From assembly GCA_036395115.1 (NCBI GenBank), contig DASWDU010000030.1:1-57329 (forward strand): a stretch of DNA of 57,329 nucleotides, read 5' to 3'. Within the stretch, counting starts at the first letter, position 1. Each line of letters starts with the position of its first letter. The translations under genes and the position numbers were made by a program. Origin of the DNA: Thermoplasmata archaeon. Lineage in GTDB: Archaea > Thermoplasmatota > Thermoplasmata > RBG-16-68-12. Positions 36,479 through 48,798 of the stretch are shown one piece after another. The notes under the pieces are model-generated. The model did no database searches, was not told the DNA's origin, and was given only the letters and a program-made list of their open reading frames with translations.

Positions 36479-37009
36479 GTGGAAGTCACCTTGACCTCGA
36501 CGGGCGGGAAGGCGTCGGAGGCCCTGGCGCGGGCGATCGGCGCGCTCGTCGAGGGCGTCACGTTCTACGACCTCGCGAACGCCGCGGTCGCGGAGGTGCG
36601 GGTGAAAGTCGCCTTCGAGGACCTCGGCCGACGGAAGAAGGCGCAGCTCGCACGGCTCGAGTCCGTGACCGGCCGGTCCGCGAAAGACGCCGCGATCCTC
36701 CCGGGGATTTATCCCATGGACGTCGTCTCGAAGGTCACGTGCTACGTCTGCGGCTACGTCGCGGAAACGAAGGCGATGCCGAACCAGTGCCCGAACTGCG
36801 GCGCGGCCCGGTACGCATTCGAGAAGGAGATCACACTGTCGAAGGCGTGGGAGATCGCCGCGGATGCGGGCCGGAAGTCCGCGGCCGTGTTCCGGGAGGA
36901 GGCCGCACGCACCGACCGACCGACCCGGGCTGTCTTGGAGGAACTCGCGGACGACGAAGACCGGGAGGCCGCTGAGGCGGCGCGACAGCTCGAGGAGCTC
37001 CGCACCTGA
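36479..37009 (+). CDS. Protein with rubredoxin-like zinc/iron site
   Basis: 176 residues from GTG 36479. A helical N-terminal part (residues 1-85) precedes a rubrerythrin-type rubredoxin domain, CYVCGYVAETKAMPNQCPNCGAARYAF (four Cys, about residues 89-111), and a second helical, acidic part. The diiron ligand pattern of full rubrerythrin is not evident. It may be a metal- or redox-sensing accessory protein. It ends 18 bases before the CCG protein gene and is probably co-transcribed. Confidence 0.75.
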   Translation: MEVTLTSTGGKASEALARAIGALVEGVTFYDLANAAVAEVRVKVAFEDLGRRKKAQLARLESVTGRSAKDAAILPGIYPMDVVSKVTCYVCGYVAETKAMPNQCPNCGAARYAFEKEITLSKAWEIAADAGRKSAAVFREEAARTDRPTRAVLEELADDEDREAAEAARQLEELRT

Positions 37010-37027
37010 GACGGTGGGTGGAATCGC

Positions 37028-38191
37028 ATGCCCCGCCTCGCGAAGATGCCTCCCATTCAGGAAGACGTCCACGCGTGCACGATGTGCGGCTACTGCGTCC
37101 CCGTGTGCCCGGCGTACCAGGAGGCGGGCTGGGAGGGCGCATCCCCCCGGGGCCGGATCTTCGCGCTGCGGCAATACGAGATGCGCGGGCCGCTGGACCG
37201 CCTGCTCGGCCGTCACGTGAAGCCGGGCGAAGACTTCGCGCGAAACGCGTGGGAGTGCACCGGCTGCGGCGCCTGCGAGGCGATTTGCCCCGTCGACATC
37301 CCGTTCGACACCCTGTGGGACGACGTCAAGGCGTGGATGGTGAACTCCGGGTACGCCCGGCCGCAGCTCGAGCCGTATCTGGAGAACGTCCGGGAAACGC
37401 ACAACTTGTTCGGCGAGCCGGCCGAGGCGCGCGCCGCGTGGATCCCCCCGGAGGCCGTCCAATCGGAGACCCCGGAGGTCATCTACTGGGTGGGCTGCGT
37501 CGCGAGCTACAAGAAGCAGCAGATCGCCCGGGCCGTCGTGAAGATCCTGAACGCCGCGCGGGTGCCGTACAAGATCCTCGGGACGGAGGAATGGTGCTCC
37601 GGCGCGCCGATCGCTCGGATGGGCTACCAAGAGGTGACGAAGAAGGAGCTCATGCCGCACAACGTCCGGGCGGTCCAGGAGACCGGCGCGAAGGTCCTCG
37701 TGACCGCGTGCGCCGAGTGCTACCGGGCGTTCGCCCGGGACTACAAGCAGTGGGGCGGGAACCCGCCGTTCAGCGTGTTTCACATCGCGCATTACGTCGA
37801 GAAGCTGATCCGGGAGAAGCGGATCGCGTTCACGAAGCCGCTGCCGCAGAAGGTCGCGTTCCACGACGCGTGCCACCTGTCCCGCGTCAGCAAGGTGTAC
37901 GAGCCGCCGCGCCAGGCGTTGAAGTTCATCAAGGACCTCAAGATCCTCGAGATCCTCCCCTCGAAGGAGGACGCGCTCTGCTCGGGGGCTGGCGGCGGCT
38001 TCCCGGCCGTCTTCCCGGAGCAAGCCGCCGGAGTGGGACAGCGGCGCCTCGACGCGGTGGAGGACACGGGCGCGACGAGCCTCGTCACGACGTGCCCGCA
38101 CGCCGAGATGCACTTCTCCGATATCGCCCAGAGGCGGAACATGCAGCTGAGCATCGTCGACCTGGCCGAGATGCTCGCCCAGGCCCTCTGA
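37028..38191 (+). CDS. CCG-domain Fe-S oxidoreductase (HdrD/GlcF-like)
   Basis: 387 residues. The N-terminal ferredoxin part has CTMCGYCVPVCP and CTGCGACEAICP, two [4Fe-4S] motifs. Two cysteine-rich CCG domains follow: WVGCVASYK...EWCSGAP...TACAECYRAF and FHDACHLSR...CSGAGGGFP...TTCPHAEMHF. This architecture is shared by HdrD and by the GlcF subunit of glycolate/lactate oxidase. With the GlcD-like flavoprotein at 29742 it could form a D-lactate or 2-hydroxyacid dehydrogenase feeding electrons to quinone or thiol carriers. Confidence 0.9.
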   Translation: MPRLAKMPPIQEDVHACTMCGYCVPVCPAYQEAGWEGASPRGRIFALRQYEMRGPLDRLLGRHVKPGEDFARNAWECTGCGACEAICPVDIPFDTLWDDVKAWMVNSGYARPQLEPYLENVRETHNLFGEPAEARAAWIPPEAVQSETPEVIYWVGCVASYKKQQIARAVVKILNAARVPYKILGTEEWCSGAPIARMGYQEVTKKELMPHNVRAVQETGAKVLVTACAECYRAFARDYKQWGGNPPFSVFHIAHYVEKLIREKRIAFTKPLPQKVAFHDACHLSRVSKVYEPPRQALKFIKDLKILEILPSKEDALCSGAGGGFPAVFPEQAAGVGQRRLDAVEDTGATSLVTTCPHAEMHFSDIAQRRNMQLSIVDLAEMLAQAL

Positions 38192-38202: not shown

Positions 38203-38610
38203 TCAGATCGTGAAGCTCAGCCCGCACGAACACGAATGCTTCGCGTTCGGGTTGGTGATCTTGAATTGCCCGCCGAAGAGGTCTTCCTCCCAGTCCAGCC
38301 TCGACCCGCGCAGGTACGTCATGCTCTTCGGGTCGACGAACACCTTGACGTCCTGCTCCGCGACGACGAGGTCCGTCGGCCGCGGGGCGTCCGCGAGGTC
38401 CATGCGGTACTGCATTCCGCTGCAGCCGCCCGCGATGATCCGCAGGCGCAACGAGGCGCCCGGTTTGCTCTCCTTCTGCTGCAACACGTGGATCCGGCGG
38501 ACGGCGCCCTCCGTCACGACGAGCGGCAGTTCCTCCGGGGGCATCACGTCGCGTTCGAACGCGGCGCCTCGACTTAAGTCTTCCGTCGAAAATCGTGCGT
38601 CGTTCGTCAT
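38203..38610 (-). CDS. sufA: IscA/SufA-type Fe-S carrier
   Basis: 135 residues. The A-type carrier cysteines are present in AGGCSGMQY and HSCSCGLSF, with FVDPKSMTYLRGSRLDW between them. An N-terminal extension of about 25 residues precedes the core (LPLVVTEGAV). ATG 38610 is supported by a minus-strand TATA box (38631-38640) centred 26 bases upstream. It is divergent from sufB across 78 bases. Confidence 0.92.
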   Translation of the reverse strand: MTNDARFSTEDLSRGAAFERDVMPPEELPLVVTEGAVRRIHVLQQKESKPGASLRLRIIAGGCSGMQYRMDLADAPRPTDLVVAEQDVKVFVDPKSMTYLRGSRLDWEEDLFGGQFKITNPNAKHSCSCGLSFTI

Positions 38611-38688: not shown

Positions 38689-40140
38689 ATGGTCACCAAG
38701 AGCGTAATCCAGGAGCAAATGTCGAAGCAGGAGTACAAGTACGGCTTCGTCGCGGACCTCGACGAGGACACGGTCCCGAAGGGCCTGAACGAGGACGTCG
38801 TCCGGCTCATCTCCCAGAAGAAGAAGGAGCCGGAATGGATGCTCGATTGGCGCCTTCGCGCCTACCGGCACTGGCTCACGATGAAGGAGCCGAAGTGGTC
38901 GAACGTCCGATATCCTCCGATCAACTATCAGGACATCATCTACTACGCCGCGCCGAGGCCGAAGAAGCCCGTGAACAGCCTCGAGGACGTCGACCCGGAG
39001 ATCCGGAGCCTGTACGCCAAGCTCGGCATCCCGCTCCAGGAGCAGGAACGCCTCGCGGGCGTCGCGGTCGACGCGGTCTTGGACAGCGTGTCCGTCGCGA
39101 CGACGTTCAAGCAGCGGCTCGCCGATGAGGGCATCATCTTCTGCTCGTTCTCCGAGGCGGTCCAGGAACACCCGGACCTCGTCCGGAAGTACCTGGGGTC
39201 CGTCGTACCCTTCAACGACAACTTCTTCGCCGGCCTGAACAGCGCGGTCTTCTCCGACGGCTCGTTCGCGTACGTCCCCCCGGGCGTGCGCTGCCCGATG
39301 GAGCTGTCCACGTACTTCCGGATCAACGCGCAGGACACGGGCCAGTTCGAGCGCACCCTGATCATCGCGGACGAGCGGGCGTACGTCAGCTATCTCGAGG
39401 GATGCACGGCGCCGATCCGGGACACGAACCAGCTTCACGCGGCGGTGGTCGAGCTGATCGCCCTCGATGACGCCGAGATCAAGTACTCCACGATCCAGAA
39501 CTGGTACCCGGGGGACAAGGAAGGGAAGGGAGGCATCTACAACTTCGTCACGAAGCGCGGGAAATGCCTCGGCGTGAATTCGAAGATCTCGTGGACCCAG
39601 GTCGAGACCGGTAGCGCGATCACGTGGAAGTATCCGAGCTGCATCCTCCAGGGGGACAACTCCACGGGCGAGTTCTACTCCGTCGCCGTCGTGAACAACT
39701 ACCAGCAGGCCGACACGGGGACGAAGATGCTCCACATCGGGAAGAACACCCGCAGCACGATCATCTCCAAGGGCATCTCCGCCGGCTACGGCCGGAACAC
39801 GTACCGGGGCCGGGTGCACATCCACAAGGGCGCGACGGGCGCCCGGAACTACTCCCAGTGCGACTCCCTTCTGATCGGCTCCGTGTGCGCCGCGTTCACG
39901 TTCCCCGACATCGTGGTCCAGGATCCGACCGCGCAGATGGAGCACGAGGCGTCGACCTCGAAGATCGGGGACGAGCAGCTTTTCTACTGCCAGACGCGGG
40001 GCCTGACGCCGGAGGACGCGACGAACATGATCGTGAACGGGTTCTGCAAGCAGGTGTTCCTGAAGCTCCCCATGGAGTTCGCGGTCGAGGCCCAGAAGCT
40101 GATCGGCGTGAGCCTGAACCTCGAAGGCACGGTCGGCTGA
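38689..40140 (+). CDS. sufB: SufB, Fe-S cluster scaffold subunit
   Basis: 483 residues. SufB is the cluster-building subunit of the SufBC(2)D complex. The core motifs are kept: [69 protein letters not shown] and [23 protein letters not shown]. Cysteines in QCDSL, LFYC and GFCK match those conserved in bacterial SufB. Strong ribosome-binding site. It is the first gene of sufB-sufC-sufD. Confidence 0.96.
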
Positions 40141-40167: not shown

Positions 40168-40938
40168 ATGCTTGAGATTCAGAATCTGCACGTCAAGGTG
40201 AGCGGCAAGGAAATCCTGAAAGGGATCGACCTCTCGATCCAGCCCGGGCAGGTGCACGCGATCATGGGACCGAATGGGAGCGGCAAGACGACCCTCGCGC
40301 AGGTCCTCGCCGGCCGTATCACGTACGAGGTCACGCAAGGCAAAGTCCGCTTCGAAGGAAAGGACCTCTTGGCGATGCGCCCCGAAGACCGCGCCCGCGA
40401 GGGCGTGTTCATGGCGTTCCAGTACCCCGTCGAGATCCCGGGCGTGAGCAACGCCTATTTCCTCAAAGCGGCGTTGAACGCGATTCGCAAGTATCGCGGC
40501 CAGGAGGAGATCGACGCCATGGACTTCATGGCCCTCGTCCAGGAGAAGGCGAAGCTCCTCGCTCTCGACGAGACGTTCATGAAGCGCGGTCTGAACGAGG
40601 GATTCTCCGGCGGCGAGAAGAAGAAGAACGAGGTGTTCCAGATGGCCGTCCTCGAGCCGAAGTTCTGCATCCTCGACGAGACGGACTCCGGCTTGGACAT
40701 CGACGCCCTGCGCCTCGTGGCCAACGGGATCAACGCGATGCGCAGCCCGGCCCGGGCGATGCTCGTCGTCACGCACTACCAGCGTCTCCTCGACTACGTC
40801 GTCCCGGACGTCGTCCACGTCCTCGTCGACGGGAAGATCGTGAAGAGCGGCGACGCGGATCTCGCCCGCAACCTCGAGAAGCACGGTTACGGCTGGATTG
40901 TCGAGGAGGCCCCGAGACCAGCGCCCGCGCGTCCGTGA
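40168..40938 (+). CDS. sufC: SufC, ABC-type ATPase of the SUF system
   Basis: 256 residues. Walker A GPNGSGKTT, Q-loop FQYPVEIPGV, signature FSGGEKKKNE, Walker B CILDETDSGLD and the H-switch VVTHYQ are all present. SufC drives conformational change in SufB-SufD. ATG 40168 gives the canonical MLEIQNLHV start. It overlaps sufD by four bases. Confidence 0.97.
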   Translation: MLEIQNLHVKVSGKEILKGIDLSIQPGQVHAIMGPNGSGKTTLAQVLAGRITYEVTQGKVRFEGKDLLAMRPEDRAREGVFMAFQYPVEIPGVSNAYFLKAALNAIRKYRGQEEIDAMDFMALVQEKAKLLALDETFMKRGLNEGFSGGEKKKNEVFQMAVLEPKFCILDETDSGLDIDALRLVANGINAMRSPARAMLVVTHYQRLLDYVVPDVVHVLVDGKIVKSGDADLARNLEKHGYGWIVEEAPRPAPARP

Positions 40939-42293
40939 GGCCGGTGGCGGACGTGGCCGTCGCCGTCGACGCCAAGCAGACGTATGTCGGGGAGTTCGCG
41001 TCGTCCGAGAAGGAACTCGGCGGGCCGAAGTGGCTCCGCACGCTGCGCAAGACGGCGATCGGGCGTTTCGAGTCCCTTGGCTTCCCGACGCAGAAGCACG
41101 AGGAATGGAAATACACGAACCTCGCGCCGCTCCTCCGGGTTCCGTTCAAGCCGGCGATCCTGGCACGTCCGGACGGCGTCGTCGCCGAGAAGCTCGACCC
41201 CTTCACCTTCGGCGTGCTGAAGACGAGCCGCGTCGTGTTCGTGAACGGCCGTTATTCGCCCCGCCTCTCGTACCTCCGGTCCTTGCCAGAGGGCGTTCGG
41301 GTCGTGCCGGTGGCGGAGATTCTCCGCTCGGAGCCGAGCATCCTCGAGAAGCACCTCGGTCGCTACGCGAGCTTCGAGGCCGACCCGTTCGTCGCGTTGA
41401 ACACGGCGTTCTTCCAGGACGGCGCGTTCGTCGAGATTCCTAAGAACACCGTCATCGATGAACCGATCCATCTCCTCTTCTTGTCGGCCTCATCCGACTT
41501 GCCGATCGTCTCCTACCCCCGGAACCTGATTCGGCTCGGCCCGAACAGCCAGGCGACCGTCATCGAGACGTACGCAGGCTGGGCCCCCGACGTCACGTTC
41601 GCGAACGGCATCACGGAGGTCGTCGTCGGACCGGGCGCGACCCTCGAACACTACAAGGTGCAGCGGGAGTCTGAACGCGCGTTTCACTTCGCGACGATGA
41701 CGGTCGACCAAGACCGGGATTCGTCCGTGACGGCGCATTCCATGTCGTTCGGCGGCTCTCTGTCGAGGAACTCCGTGTACACGAAATTCGGCGGGGAAGG
41801 CGGCAGCCTCGCGCTCAACGGGATCTTCATGCCGCGGGAGACGCAGCAACACGACAACTACACGCGGATCGACCACGTGGCCCGATCGTGCACGAGCGTC
41901 GAGCTGTACCGCGGGATCCTCGACGGCAAGTCGCGCGGCGTCTTCAACGGAAACATCTACGTCCGGAAGGATGCACAGAAGACGGTCGCGCGGCAGACGA
42001 ACAAGAACCTCCTCCTCTCAAAGGAGGCGTTCGTCGACAGCACGCCGGGCCTCGAGATCCTCGCGGACGACGTGAAGTGCAACCACGCGTCGACGATCGG
42101 CCAGCTGGACGACAACGCGGTCTTCTACCTGCGGTCGCGCGGCGTCGACGAGGAGGCCGCCCGGAACATCCTGACGTACGCCTTCGTCGCGGACGTCGTG
42201 AACCAAGTGAGGGTCGCACCGATCCGCATCAAGCTCGACCAGCTCATCCTTTCGCGCCTGCCGAAGGGGGCCGGCCTCGGGGTGACCTCATGA
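40935..42293 (+). CDS. sufD: SufD, Fe-S assembly subunit
   Basis: 452 residues from GTG 40935, overlapping the sufC stop (GTGA). SufD-type features are HEEWKYTNLAPLLR near the start, FNGNIYVRKDAQKTVARQTNKNLLLS and the C-terminal KCNHASTIGQLDDNAVFYLRSRGVDEEAAR. The conserved His after Cys (KCNH) is kept. It pairs with SufB around a SufC dimer. Confidence 0.94.
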   Translation: MRPVADVAVAVDAKQTYVGEFASSEKELGGPKWLRTLRKTAIGRFESLGFPTQKHEEWKYTNLAPLLRVPFKPAILARPDGVVAEKLDPFTFGVLKTSRVVFVNGRYSPRLSYLRSLPEGVRVVPVAEILRSEPSILEKHLGRYASFEADPFVALNTAFFQDGAFVEIPKNTVIDEPIHLLFLSASSDLPIVSYPRNLIRLGPNSQATVIETYAGWAPDVTFANGITEVVVGPGATLEHYKVQRESERAFHFATMTVDQDRDSSVTAHSMSFGGSLSRNSVYTKFGGEGGSLALNGIFMPRETQQHDNYTRIDHVARSCTSVELYRGILDGKSRGVFNGNIYVRKDAQKTVARQTNKNLLLSKEAFVDSTPGLEILADDVKCNHASTIGQLDDNAVFYLRSRGVDEEAARNILTYAFVADVVNQVRVAPIRIKLDQLILSRLPKGAGLGVTS

Positions 42294-42345: not shown

Positions 42346-42795
42346 ATGCCCGACCTCCGTGAGTTGTACCAGGAGACGATCCTCGACCACAGCAAGAAGC
42401 CTCGGAACTTCCGCGAGCTCCCGGAGGCGAGCGCGAAGGCGGTCGGCCACAACCCGCTGTGCGGGGACCGGGTGACCGTCTACCTGCGGGTCGACGACAG
42501 CAAGATCGCGGACGTCGCGTTCGTCGGCCAGGGCTGCGCGATCTCGAAAGCCTCGGCGTCGCTGATGACCGACGCGGTCAAGGGGAAGTCGAAGGCGGAA
42601 GCGCACGCGTTGTTCGAGCGGTTCCACAAGATGGTGACGGCCCGTCCGGGCGACCCCGTGGACGCCTCGCTCGGCAAGCTGGCGGTCTTGTCCGGCGTCT
42701 GCGAGTTCCCCGTCCGGGTGAAGTGCGCCAGCCTGCCATGGCACACCCTCGAGGCGGCGCTCGAGGCGAAGACGGACACGGTCTCCTTGGAGTGA
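42346..42795 (+). CDS. sufU: SufU/IscU-type scaffold or sulfur acceptor, copy 1
   Basis: 149 residues. The three cysteines and one aspartate of SufU are visible in NPLCGDRV, GQGCAISKASAS and VKCASLPWHTL. It contains the insert typical of SufU between the second and third Cys (about 45 residues). SufU accepts persulfide from SufS by zinc-ligand exchange in bacteria. The next gene begins two bases after its stop. A second, shorter copy lies at 45416. Confidence 0.92.
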   Translation: MPDLRELYQETILDHSKKPRNFRELPEASAKAVGHNPLCGDRVTVYLRVDDSKIADVAFVGQGCAISKASASLMTDAVKGKSKAEAHALFERFHKMVTARPGDPVDASLGKLAVLSGVCEFPVRVKCASLPWHTLEAALEAKTDTVSLE

Positions 42796-42797
42796 GG

Positions 42798-44123
42798 ATG
42801 ACCCGCGCCGACGTCTCCCGCACCGCCTCTCGCGACATGGTACGCCACGCGATCGACGCGGGCCCGAGCGCGGACGCGGTCGCTGGCCTGTCGAAACGCC
42901 GCAACGAGCCCGATTGGATGCTCCGCCTGCGGCTGCAGGGACTCGAGTCGCTGCGGTCTGAAGGCATGCCCGCGTGGGCCTCGTTCCTGCGGGACGTGGA
43001 CTTCGACGGCATGGTCGGCGCGGACGCTTCGCCGCCTCCGGTTCCGGCCGAGGCGCGGGAACCTTCCCTGATCGCAGGCCTCGGCGCCCTCGCCGCGTCC
43101 GAGGAGGCGTACCGCGGAGTGCGGAAGGACCTCGAATCCCAGGGCGTACGGTTCCTCGGGATGCCGGCGGCGCTCGCGCACCTCCCCGACCTCGTGAAGG
43201 CGCATTTCGCGTCCGTCGTGGCGGCGGACGACCATCCGCTCGCCGCCCTGAACTCCGCGTTGTGGACCGGGGGATCGTTCCTGTACGTGCCCCCCGGCGT
43301 CCGCGTCGAGGTGCCGCTCCAAGCGGAGATTCGCGACGATTACGTCGGCGTCGAGCCGTTCGAGCGGAACGTCATCGTCGCGGACCGCGGCGCCGACGTG
43401 ACGTATATCGAGGGGTGCACCGCGCCCGTCTACACGCCCGACGAGATACACGTCTCCGCGATCGAAGTGCTCGCGATGCCCGGCTCCCGCGTACGGTACA
43501 TCGCCTTGCAGAACTTCTCGAAGGGGGTCGACAACCTCGTCACGAAACGGGCGATCGTCCATGAGGACGCGTCGATCGCGTGGGTCGACATCAACCTCGG
43601 CTCCCGCCGGACGTGGAAGGTGCCCCGGGCGGATCTGCGGGGAGCCGGCGCCTCGGCGGAGTTCGTCGGCGTCGCCTTCGCGGGCCCGGGCCAGCACGAG
43701 GACATCGGCGCCGAGATGGTCCATCGGGCGCCGCGGACCCGGTCCCGGATCGTGAATCACGGCATCGTCCGCGGAGGCGGCCGCGCAAGCCTCCGGTCCG
43801 GGGTGCGTGTGGCGCCCGGGGCGACGGGCGTCACATCGTCCGTCGAATGGTCGTCCCTGATGCTCGATGCCGAATCGCGCACCGAGACCGCGCCATCGAT
43901 CGAGATCGACGAGGCGGACGCCGAGGTCGCGCAGGAGGGCGCCGTGCGGAAGGTGAGCGACGACATGCTGTTCTACATGACGTCCCGCGGCGTCACGAGC
44001 GAGGAGGCGCTGCACATGATCGTCCTCGGCATCGCCGGGGTCGCGACAAGTCGCATCCCAGTCGAGTACGCGGTCGAGGTCGACCGGCTCCTGGAGCTGG
44101 AGCTCGGGGGCGGCGTTGGCTGA
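42798..44123 (+). CDS. Third SufB/SufD-family paralog without C-terminal cysteines
   Basis: 441 residues, clearly homologous to SufB: NEPDWMLRLRLQGLESL, LYVPPGVRVEVPLQAEI, YIEGCTAPVYTPDEIHVSAIEV, and the C-terminal DDMLFYMTSRGVTSEEALHMIVLGIA. Each cysteine conserved in the true SufB C-terminus is replaced: QCDSL is EWSSL, LFYC is LFYM and NGFCK is LGIAG. It cannot build a cluster as SufB does and may be a structural or regulatory partner. It is tightly linked to sufU (two bases) and sufS. Confidence 0.88.
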   Translation: MTRADVSRTASRDMVRHAIDAGPSADAVAGLSKRRNEPDWMLRLRLQGLESLRSEGMPAWASFLRDVDFDGMVGADASPPPVPAEAREPSLIAGLGALAASEEAYRGVRKDLESQGVRFLGMPAALAHLPDLVKAHFASVVAADDHPLAALNSALWTGGSFLYVPPGVRVEVPLQAEIRDDYVGVEPFERNVIVADRGADVTYIEGCTAPVYTPDEIHVSAIEVLAMPGSRVRYIALQNFSKGVDNLVTKRAIVHEDASIAWVDINLGSRRTWKVPRADLRGAGASAEFVGVAFAGPGQHEDIGAEMVHRAPRTRSRIVNHGIVRGGGRASLRSGVRVAPGATGVTSSVEWSSLMLDAESRTETAPSIEIDEADAEVAQEGAVRKVSDDMLFYMTSRGVTSEEALHMIVLGIAGVATSRIPVEYAVEVDRLLELELGGGVG

Positions 44124-44168: not shown

Positions 44169-45416
44169 ATGGTGAAACCCGCCAAGGTCCTGCTGAACGT
44201 CCCCGCGATCAAGGCGGACTTCCCGATCCTGCAGCGGACGATCCGGGACAAGCGGCTCGTGTACCTGGACAGCGCCGCCACCTCGCAGAAGCCCCACCAG
44301 GTCATCGAGGCGACGTCGGACTACTATGCGCGGTACAACGCGAACGTGCACCGCGCGATCTACGAGCTCGGCGAGGAGTCCACGAGAGAGTACGAGGGCG
44401 CTCGGGAGAAAGTCGCCGCGTTCATCGGCGCGAAGTCGCCGAACGAGGTCGTGTTCACGAAGTCGACGACGGAGTCGATCAACGTCATCGCGTACGGCTA
44501 CGGCCTGAAAGGGAAGATCACAAAGGGCGACGAGATCGTCGGCTCGGTCATGGAGCATCACTCGAACCACGTGCCCTGGCATTTCGTGAAAGATCACAAG
44601 GGGGCCGTGCTCAAGTACGTCGATGTGCACGACGACGGCACGCTCAGGATGGAGCAGTACGACGACCTCCTGTCGGAGCGCACGAAAATCGTGACGGTCA
44701 CGATGTGCTCGAACGTCCTCGGGACGATCAACCCGGTCAAGGAGATCGTGAAGCGGGCGCACGAGGTCGGCGCGATCTGCGTCGTCGACGCGGCCCAAGC
44801 CGCCCCGCATATGCCGATCGACGTGCAAGATCTCGATGCGGACTTCCTCGCGTTCAGCGGTCACAAGATGCTCGGGCCGACGGGGATCGGCGTCCTGTAC
44901 GGGAAGCCGAAGCTCCTCGAGGCGACGGAGCCGCTGCTCGGCGGCGGCGAGATGATCCGCGAAGTCCACCTCGGATCGGCGAAGTGGAACGACGTTCCGT
45001 ACAAGTTCGAGGGCGGCACCCCGAATATCGCAGGCGCGATCGGCCTCGGCGTGGCGGTCGACTATCTGTCGAACATCGGGATGGAGGCGGTCCGGGCGCA
45101 CGAGATGGAGATCACGGAATACGCGCTCGAGAGGCTGGGCCGGCTCAAGGGCGTGCAGACGTTCGGTCCGAAGGACGTCACGAAGCGTGCGGGCGTCGTG
45201 TCCTTCACGATCGATAACGCGCACCCGCACGACATCGCCTCGATCCTCGACGTCGAGGGGATCTGCGTCCGCTCGGGCCACCACTGCGCCCAGCCGCTCA
45301 TGGAGCGGTTCGGCCTTCCGGCCACGGCGCGGGCGTCGTTCTACGTCTACAACGACCTCGAGGACGTCGACGCGCTCGTCGCCGGGATCAAGCGGGTCCA
45401 AGAGGTCTTCTCCTGA
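44169..45416 (+). CDS. sufS: SufS cysteine desulfurase
   Basis: 415 residues, class II aminotransferase fold. The PLP lysine is in AFSGHKMLGPTGIG. The catalytic cysteine is in RSGHHCAQPLM. Other landmarks are YLDSAATSQKP and SVMEHHSNHVPW. It converts cysteine to alanine and a protein persulfide that is passed on to SufU. The stop overlaps the next ATG (TGATG). As the sulfur entry point it could serve both Fe-S assembly and the thiocarboxylate pathway downstream. Confidence 0.96.
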   Translation: MVKPAKVLLNVPAIKADFPILQRTIRDKRLVYLDSAATSQKPHQVIEATSDYYARYNANVHRAIYELGEESTREYEGAREKVAAFIGAKSPNEVVFTKSTTESINVIAYGYGLKGKITKGDEIVGSVMEHHSNHVPWHFVKDHKGAVLKYVDVHDDGTLRMEQYDDLLSERTKIVTVTMCSNVLGTINPVKEIVKRAHEVGAICVVDAAQAAPHMPIDVQDLDADFLAFSGHKMLGPTGIGVLYGKPKLLEATEPLLGGGEMIREVHLGSAKWNDVPYKFEGGTPNIAGAIGLGVAVDYLSNIGMEAVRAHEMEITEYALERLGRLKGVQTFGPKDVTKRAGVVSFTIDNAHPHDIASILDVEGICVRSGHHCAQPLMERFGLPATARASFYVYNDLEDVDALVAGIKRVQEVFS

Positions 45417-45805
45417 TGTCCGCGGCGTACGACCTGTACCAAGAGCAGATCCTCGACCACTACAAGCATCCGAGGAACAAGGGGCCCCTGCCCGATGCGA
45501 CGTACAACGCGCACGACTCGAACCCGCTGTGCGGCGACGAAGTCGTACTGCATCTCAAGGTGGACGCATCGCGTGTCGCCGACGTGCGCTTCGAGGGCCA
45601 AGGGTGCGCGATCAGTCAGGCGAGCGCCTCGATGCTGACGACGATGCTCAAGGGCGTCCCCGTCGCGGAGGCGGAAGCGGTCGATCGCGAGGCGGTCCTG
45701 AAGAAGCTCGGGATCCCGCTGAGCGCGGTCCGTCTCAAGTGCGCCCTGCTCTCCCTGCACGTCCTGAAGCTCGCCCTCGGCAAGCAGGCGGACGTCGCGA
45801 CGTGA
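45416..45805 (+). CDS. sufU: SufU-type protein, copy 2
   Basis: 129 residues. NPLCGDEV, GQGCAISQASAS and LKCALLSLHVL supply three Cys and one Asp as in copy 1, but the segment between the second and third Cys is shorter. Start and stop codons overlap sufS, so the two are translationally coupled. It is therefore the more likely direct SufS partner. Confidence 0.92.
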   Translation: MSAAYDLYQEQILDHYKHPRNKGPLPDATYNAHDSNPLCGDEVVLHLKVDASRVADVRFEGQGCAISQASASMLTTMLKGVPVAEAEAVDREAVLKKLGIPLSAVRLKCALLSLHVLKLALGKQADVAT

Positions 45806-45817
45806 GGCCGCCGACCC

Positions 45818-46747
45818 ATGCGAGCGGACGCGACGACGCGGAACGCCACGCGCCTCGCGGACCGGATCGGGCGCACCCCGCTTCTCCCGCTTGAAAGGAT
45901 TGCGGCGCACGTGGCCCCGGGCGTCCGGCTCTTCGCCAAGGCGGAGTGGCTCAACCCGGGCGGGAGCGTGAAGGACCGCGCCGCCCTGGGCATGCTGCGT
46001 TCCGCGGAGAGGGCCGGGCTGACGCGGGATCACGTGCTCCTCGACGCGACCTCGGGCAACACGGGAATCGCCATCGCGATGCTCGCCGCGGCGGAAGGAT
46101 ACCGGGCGACGCTGTGTGTACCGGCGAACGTCAGCCCCGGACGACGACGGATCCTCGAGGCGTACGGCGCCGAACTCGTCTTCACGCCCGCCCCCGAGGG
46201 GACGGACGGGGCCCAAGACGCCGCAAAACGGCTCGCCGCCGCTCACCCCGATACGTACTGGTATCTCGACCAGTACAACAACGAGGCGAACTGGCGCGCG
46301 CACTTCGAATCGACGGGACCTGAAATCTGGGATCAGACGCACGGACGGATCACGCACCTCGTCGCGTGCCTCGGGACGACGGGGACGTTCGTGGGCGCCG
46401 GGCGGTTTCTGAGGAGGGGGGGTCGCCACGTCGGCTTGGTGGCCGTCCAGCCGGACGGCCCGTTCCACGGGATCGAAGGGGTGAAGCGCCTCGAGGGTTC
46501 GCGGGTCCCCGGGATCTGGGATCCGACCCTCGTCGACGAGACCATGTCCGTCGCGACGGAGGACGCGCAGGCGGCGGTCCGCCGCCTCGCGCGGGAGGAA
46601 GGCGTCCTCGTCGGCACCTCGAGCGGCGCCGCGCTTGATGCCGCGATTCGGCTCGCCGAGCGAATTCGCGAGGGGCTCATCGTGGCCATCTTCCCGGACG
46701 GCGGCTCGATGTACCTCGGAGAACGGTACTGGGAGAAGGCTCCGTGA
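45818..46747 (+). CDS. cysM: CysM-type PLP sulfhydrylase (cysteine synthase)
   Basis: 309 residues, fold type II PLP enzyme. PLP Lys is in NPGGSVKDRAALGML, the substrate loop is TSGNTGIAIAM, and the phosphate-binding loop lies near LGTTGTFVGAGRFL. The pattern STGPEIW...ITHLVACLGTTGTFVGAGRFLR is close to mycobacterial CysM as I recall it. By that recollection the OPS-specificity arginine (Arg220) aligns with Lys in GVKRLEG, still basic, which would suit O-phosphoserine as substrate; this alignment is from memory. The overlapping JAMM and downstream CysO genes support a protein-thiocarboxylate-dependent route. Confidence 0.85.
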   Translation: MRADATTRNATRLADRIGRTPLLPLERIAAHVAPGVRLFAKAEWLNPGGSVKDRAALGMLRSAERAGLTRDHVLLDATSGNTGIAIAMLAAAEGYRATLCVPANVSPGRRRILEAYGAELVFTPAPEGTDGAQDAAKRLAAAHPDTYWYLDQYNNEANWRAHFESTGPEIWDQTHGRITHLVACLGTTGTFVGAGRFLRRGGRHVGLVAVQPDGPFHGIEGVKRLEGSRVPGIWDPTLVDETMSVATEDAQAAVRRLAREEGVLVGTSSGAALDAAIRLAERIREGLIVAIFPDGGSMYLGERYWEKAP

Positions 46748-47205
46748 CGATCGGGATCCCGAAGGCCGTCGTCCGGGCAATCGAGGACCACGCGCGTGAC
46801 GCGTTTCCGGAAGAGTGTTGCGGTTTCCTCCTCGGCCATTCGGGCGAGCCTCGCCGCACCGTCGAGTCCCTTCGCGCGAAGAACGCCGCATCGGAGGATC
46901 GAGAGCACCGCTACGTCGTCGACCCGCTCGAACTCCTCCGCGCGGACGACGAGGCGCGGGCGCACGGCCACGAGTTGATCGGGATCTACCACAGCCATCC
47001 GAACCACCCGGCCGTCCCCTCGGAGTTCGATCGACTCCGGGCCGCGAGTTGGTATTCCTACGTCATCCTGCGTATCGTCGATCGGGAGCCGAAGGAGATG
47101 ACCGCCTGGGTCTTCGACGACGCGACGAAACGGTTCGTGTCCGAGGCCATCCTCCATTCGGGGCGGAAGGCCACGAGGCCATCTCGGCCGGACGGCGGAA
47201 GTTAA
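46744..47205 (+). CDS. mec: JAMM/MPN+ metalloprotease, Mec+-like
   Basis: 153 residues from GTG 46744, overlapping the cysM stop. The metalloprotease motif is complete: an upstream Glu in FPEECCGFLLG, and HSHPNHPAVPSEFD (HxHx7SxxD). Mec+ of mycobacteria has the same length and arrangement and cleaves the CysO-cysteine bond to release cysteine. Here it may also cut after the internal Gly-Gly of the CysO-MoeZ fusion encoded next. The C-terminal tail is basic and disordered. Confidence 0.9.
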   Translation: MTIGIPKAVVRAIEDHARDAFPEECCGFLLGHSGEPRRTVESLRAKNAASEDREHRYVVDPLELLRADDEARAHGHELIGIYHSHPNHPAVPSEFDRLRAASWYSYVILRIVDREPKEMTAWVFDDATKRFVSEAILHSGRKATRPSRPDGGS

Positions 47206-47222
47206 CCTTGTTTAAGGTTAAC
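47201..47222. repeat. Inverted repeat at the mec/cysO junction
   Basis: GTTAACCTT (47201-47209) and AAGGTTAAC (47214-47222) are perfect 9-base arms around GTTT. The repeat overlaps the JAMM stop codon and precedes the cysO-moeZ promoter by about 85 bases. It could be a terminator hairpin or an operator. The outer GTTAAC is shared with the GTTAACATGTTAAC palindromes, but the rest differs. Confidence 0.7.
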
Positions 47223-47305
47223 GGGGCCGCCTTCCCTCCATGCCACTCTCGGTCCCCGAGCCGGCGTCGGTCGCGCTACTCGGATTCGAATTCGAGCCGG
47301 GGCGA

Positions 47306-47316
47306 ACCTTAAGTAG
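47306..47316 (+). promoter_or_regulatory. TATA box for the cysO-moeZ fusion gene
   Basis: ACCTTAAGTAG with a GCGAA BRE-like element, about 33 bases before ATG 47344. It implies the fusion gene can be transcribed separately from cysM-mec. Confidence 0.5.
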
Positions 47317-47343
47317 ACCACCCGAATGGTTGGGACTGCGAAC

Positions 47344-48798
<1,455 letters not shown>

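Follow-up and report, generated by a model that had tools for sequence, protein, structure and literature searches.

The main finding of this study is that the SUF operon of a Thermoplasmata archaeon carries, next to a complete set of canonical sufBCD genes, a third SufB/D-family gene whose product originated in archaeal-type SufB and has lost the cluster-assembly site, a conclusion that we hold with high confidence. We use the working name SufX for this gene, which lies at positions 42798-44123 on the forward strand of the window (the whole stretch of 57,329 nucleotides that was analysed) and was assigned from profiles, trees, alignment and a structural model. Its reading frame is intact, running from ATG to TGA over 441 aa, and it sits between sufU and sufS, as an earlier sequence-only reading of this DNA had stated: it starts 2 bp past the end of sufU1 (42795), and the start of sufS (44169) follows 45 bp past its own end. 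That reading had also taken the protein to be derived from SufB rather than SufD, and profile searches agree. SufX matches the Pfam domains SUFBD_core (2.6e-61) and SufBD_N (2e-8) and passes the cut-off of the NCBIfam sufB equivalog TIGR01980 (398 vs 346.4 bits), while staying below those of the sufD profile TIGR01981 (154.5 vs 222 bits required) and the smsB profile NF052511 (153 vs 650 bits required). An AlphaFold model (28 sequences, pLDDT 83.6, pTM 0.85) matches the SufB structure 5awf_E best (Z 48.3, rmsd 2.1 over 366 residues), with lower scores for M. mazei SufB (Z 39.5) and SufD (Z 38.3), and Foldseek agrees that it is a SufB. The predicted fold is thus that of SufB, with a beta-helix core, whose retention had been claimed before, and helical ends like those of E. 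coli SufB.

The normal SufBCD set that had been noticed beside sufX was found in full. Profile and alignment evidence identifies a canonical bacterial-type SufB with all ligands present (38689-40140, forward strand) and a canonical SufD in which the equivalent of H360 is present (40935-42293, forward strand). Profiles further assign, also on the forward strand, the SufC ATPase (40168-40938), which is the sole SufC over the cut-off in the genome, SufU1 directly upstream of SufX (42346-42795), the cysteine desulfurase SufS directly downstream (44169-45416) and a short-type SufU2 (45416-45805); an A-type carrier of the ErpA/IscA family (38203-38610, reverse strand) is divergent from sufB. The genome has two SufU proteins and exactly three SUFBD_core genes, all within this one operon. 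Where assembled, the contigs of relatives show the order sufT, rubredoxin-like gene, FeS/CCG protein gene, erpA (reverse strand), sufB, sufC, sufD, sufU1, sufX, sufS, sufU2, cysteine synthase, JAB and ThiS/ThiF/rhodanese, and sufX is flanked by sufU1 and sufS in every SufX-bearing genome with both neighbours assembled. SufU1, which is of the SufU type with an insertion, adjoins bacterial-type SufBCD, and the short SufU2 is shared with relatives that have archaeal-type SufBCD but did not turn up in the sister genus on the contigs covered. Directly after sufS-sufU2, positions 45818-48798 hold a cysteine synthase, a JAB protease and a ThiS-ThiF-rhodanese triple fusion, which look like a thiocarboxylate cysteine pathway of the CysO/CysM/Mec type with the carrier fused to E1 and rhodanese; similar genes near sufS/sufU2 also occur in relatives without SufX. 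Upstream of the operon, positions 36479-38191 encode a rubredoxin-like zinc-ribbon protein and a 4Fe-4S/CCG (HdrD/GlpC-like) protein, a pair conserved across the genus and in a genome with archaeal-type SUF (G024). SufB, SufD and an A-type carrier have been reported among the functions enriched in Ca. Angelarchaeales, to which the SufX lineage may belong, jointly with Nitrososphaerales (PMC9038741).

What distinguishes SufX from SufB is the state of its assembly site, which we followed in nine full-length and three partial orthologs. In the alignment, Trp351 (codon 43848-43850, forward strand) occupies the column of E. coli SufB C405, the final sulfur acceptor and a cluster ligand, and Gln379 (codon 43932-43934, forward strand) that of E. 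coli SufB H433 and SufD H360. Both replacements are found in 9/9 full-length and 3/3 partial sequences. The H433 column is His in every other row of the alignment, whether SufB, SufD or SmsB, C405 is present in all 22 archaeal-type SufB aligned, and in E. coli SufB no other residue could replace C405 (PMC5571166). E432 is lost as well, the neighbourhood is also altered at Y386, G388, D406 and A435, and the E434 column holds Glu or Asp in 7/9 sequences (Glu in the copy of the window), Asp being the sole substitute for E434 tolerated in E. coli (residue functions from PMC5571166 and PMC6006206). The sequence-only reading had listed three motif losses, of which the change of QCDSL to EWSSL is real; LFYM and GIAG are not losses because archaeal-type SufB, the ancestor type, has LFYL and GFLE, LFYC and GFCK being motifs of bacterial-type SufB. 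Its description of a cysteine-poor homolog holds in that exactly one cysteine is left, and it had missed the second loss, that of H433 to Gln.

This only cysteine, Cys207 (codon 43416-43418, forward strand), aligns with the sulfur-entry residue C254 of E. coli SufB within the EGCTAP motif, which is kept as had been read, and each of the nine full-length orthologs has exactly one cysteine, at this column. R226, E236, E252, H265, Q285, K303 and K328 are kept in 9/9 sequences and T326 in 8/9. W287 has become Phe, a replacement with which E. coli SufB regained part of its function (PMC5571166), and other changes in region A are N228 to Asp, T283 to Ala, Y224 to Glu and Q234 to Pro; Asp is not among the functional replacements of N228 in E. 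coli (PMC5571166, PMC6006206). Overall, SufX keeps 73/116 universal SufB columns, compared with 9/10 beyond E. coli position 440, in the C-terminal, SufC-binding part. An excess retention of entry and tunnel residues is not supported, with 9/12 kept against a background of 63% of universal SufB columns and a regional Fisher test on those columns (E. coli 220-335 vs 336-440) giving p 0.29; the p of 0.02 for region 240-336, which was picked after seeing the bins, is not relied on. Judged from these columns, the contrast lies at the assembly site, with no clear extra retention of the tunnel over SufB columns in general, and the case rests on the loss of the assembly ligands throughout the clade, combined with a sole cysteine that occupies the entry site.

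The family phylogeny that the earlier reading had proposed as a check gives SufX a different parent from the neighbouring true SufB from which it had been supposed to derive. Identity of SufX to archaeal-type SufB from across the phylum is 44-50%, compared with 35% to the SufB of its own genome, and the working SufB of the genus is of the bacterial type, grouping with E. coli (100/100). Bacterial-type SufB has a 6-7-residue insertion after QN(W/F) (QNW in the SufB of the genus) and a C-terminal insertion, both of which are absent from SufX and archaeal-type SufB. In a tree without very divergent groups, SufX joins the archaeal SufB of members of the same order (G024, G026 and G030) and of G078 (97/96), and a grouping of SufX with the SufB of its genus fails the AU test (p 1e-41), which together rule out a recent duplication of the neighbouring gene. 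Clades of SufX with bacterial-type SufB including E. coli (p 0.31) or with SufD (p 0.09) were not rejected, with long branches in play. The exact sister of SufX is uncertain because its stem is long (1.3-2.0) and its letter make-up differs.

As to function, our best overall explanation, which we put forward tentatively and credit with almost an even chance, is that SufX is an archaeal-type SufB in which sulfur acceptance was kept and cluster building abolished. SufX would be the order's own SufB of the archaeal type, which stayed in, or came back to, an operon where bacterial-type SufBCD now serves as the working scaffold, and which was remodelled so that the sulfur-accepting half survives and the cluster-building half is gone. 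SufS/SufU would pass persulfide to C207 (C254 of E. coli SufB), in a protein whose beta-helix tunnel residues appear largely kept, and the C-terminal helical domain would dock on the cell's single SufC. Because Trp and Gln occupy the C405 and H433 sites, this sulfur would not be built into a cluster on SufX. Instead of being a second scaffold, SufX would accept or store sulfur, or activate SufS, in the service of canonical SufBC2D or of another sulfur acceptor. That it docks on SufC is likely, since there is only one SufC and the C-terminal domain is well kept. The putative SufC-SufX complex is plausible from sequence, and it could not assemble clusters by known ligands since C405 and H433 are absent. 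The loss of the cluster site and retention of the entry cysteine make SufX probably a sulfur-handling helper if the choice is between that and a second scaffold; taken by itself, the helper role is possible, and slightly more tentative than the overall explanation. The region A changes at N228, T283, Y224 and Q234 count against it. Moreover, SufX without C405 may hold little sulfur, because sulfur loading of the E. coli C405A mutant is down to under a quarter (PMC5571166, PMC6006206), and the fact that sufX evolves fastest of the operon's genes could reflect looser constraint or a purely structural role. A narrower version, to which we give only a minor share of the probability, is that SufX is dedicated to carrying persulfide on its single cysteine or to activating SufS, perhaps feeding the downstream thiocarboxylate/cysteine genes (ThiS-ThiF-rhodanese, JAB protease and cysteine synthase). 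If this were true, SufX would be a natural separation-of-function variant of the scaffold, one that takes up sulfur and builds no cluster.

SufX might instead be an alternative scaffold subunit, replacing SufD (SufB-SufC2-SufX) or pairing with it (SufX-SufC2-SufD) in a variant scaffold for special conditions. Such a role would fit the retained fold and C-terminal domain, the presence of one SufC only and the precedent of SufD, whose origin shows that a SufB-family paralog can turn into a partner subunit without C405. However, a stand-in for SufD would need the essential His (H360) and a stand-in for SufB would need C405, both of which SufX lacks; the surroundings at Y386, G388, D406 and A435 are changed, and SufB and SufD are both present and intact, all of which makes this role improbable. 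We consider no more probable a regulatory or structural decoy that binds SufC (or SufS) non-productively and thereby tunes SUF activity with its cysteine unused. A destroyed assembly site beside a best-kept SufC-binding part, in the most rapidly evolving gene of the operon, is what a decoy might look like, but the sole cysteine lies exactly at the sulfur-entry site, with EGCTAP, Q285 and K303, in 9/9 full-length sequences.

Two further alternatives concern the history of the gene, and bear on its distribution and selection. In a protein search of 60 relatives, SufX orthologs (67-75% identity over most of the length) were found in the same genus only. Twelve species with the locus covered, that of the window included, have SufX at the same genomic place; they are soil-type archaea of one genus, and in a concatenated SufB, C, D, U1 and S tree the SufX-bearing species form one clade (100/100); G017 falls inside it, on a contig that ends before the place of sufX. 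In three members of the same genus (G003, G010 and G012), two of the sister genus (G019 and G020) and G029, sufU1 is followed directly by sufS, and the protein search gave no SufX match in G021. No further SufX was found in 391 genomes sampled evenly across the phylum (best match 50%), and a scan of 84,980 species genomes returned only one close ortholog, in the soil MAG EA_12, its nearest named record, the rest being bacterial SufB. SufX is under purifying selection, with a dN/dS of 0.14-0.26, about twice that of most neighbours, and the signal is also seen in close pairs with unsaturated dS (0.25-0.57). Breaks in sufX are a run of N in G014 and, in G005, probable sequence errors of the MAG, on a contig (L053, G005:C290) that also has a frame break in SufS and an in-frame TAG in SufB. 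These values, the 12 species and the explained breaks rule out a pseudogene, and SufD is present and intact wherever the locus is covered, which excludes an ordinary SufD whose canonical counterpart is missing elsewhere; neither of the outcomes that would have overturned the earlier reading was thus observed. A decaying relic of the replaced archaeal SufB, heading for loss, could account for the long stem, the fast evolution and the absence from sister species, but it is very improbable given retention in all 12 clade species with the locus assembled, the dN/dS of even the close pairs, the nature of the breaks and the conservation of the new residues W351 and Q379. Compatible with any reading of function is a gain of SufX by transfer, from another archaeon or a deep bacterial-type SufB, instead of retention of the lineage's own old SufB in place. 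Since SufX is limited to one clade within the genus, one gain at the base of that clade is the simplest history, and retention needs at least three losses, given its absence from G003/G010/G012, the sister genus and G029; the AU p of 0.31 for bacterial-type SufB once E. coli is included also leaves room for transfer. Nevertheless, the nearest relatives are archaeal SufB of the same order (97/96) and SufX lacks the bacterial insertions, and we regard transfer as unlikely, if less so than the alternatives of function.

Comparison with known systems highlights similarities and differences. Like SufB of TIGR01980, whether from E. coli or of the archaeal type, SufX has the full-length fold, EGC254TAP, most tunnel residues and the C-terminal domain, but it lacks C405 and the universal His433, its E434 is not invariant, it has one cysteine in total and it coexists with a complete SufBCD. 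Like SufD, it is a SufB-family protein without C405 beside SufB in an operon. However, SufD, to which it is 22% identical in this genome, lacks C254, has lost most tunnel residues and keeps H360, which is the reverse pattern. SmsB and the minimal methanogen SufB (M. jannaschii SMS, M. mazei 4DN7) share the fold and consist of a single SufB-family chain with SufC, but in the SmsB-like rows compared, Cys and His are still present at the assembly site. We came across no report of a comparable third SufB/D paralog in the literature covered, a weak negative given limited coverage. The significance of SufX is moderate, its function being deduced and its distribution narrow. How SufB moves sulfur over the more than 25 Angstrom that separate C254 from the cluster site is an open question (PMC5571166, PMC6006206), and SufX, a natural protein under selection in at least 12 species, has the entry residue and most tunnel residues while lacking an assembly site. 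This combination makes it a ready means of telling apart sulfur entry, SufS activation and cluster building. SufX is also an example of the SufB fold losing this site in the sense opposite to SufD, and of the repurposing of an archaeal scaffold alongside a bacterial-type one.
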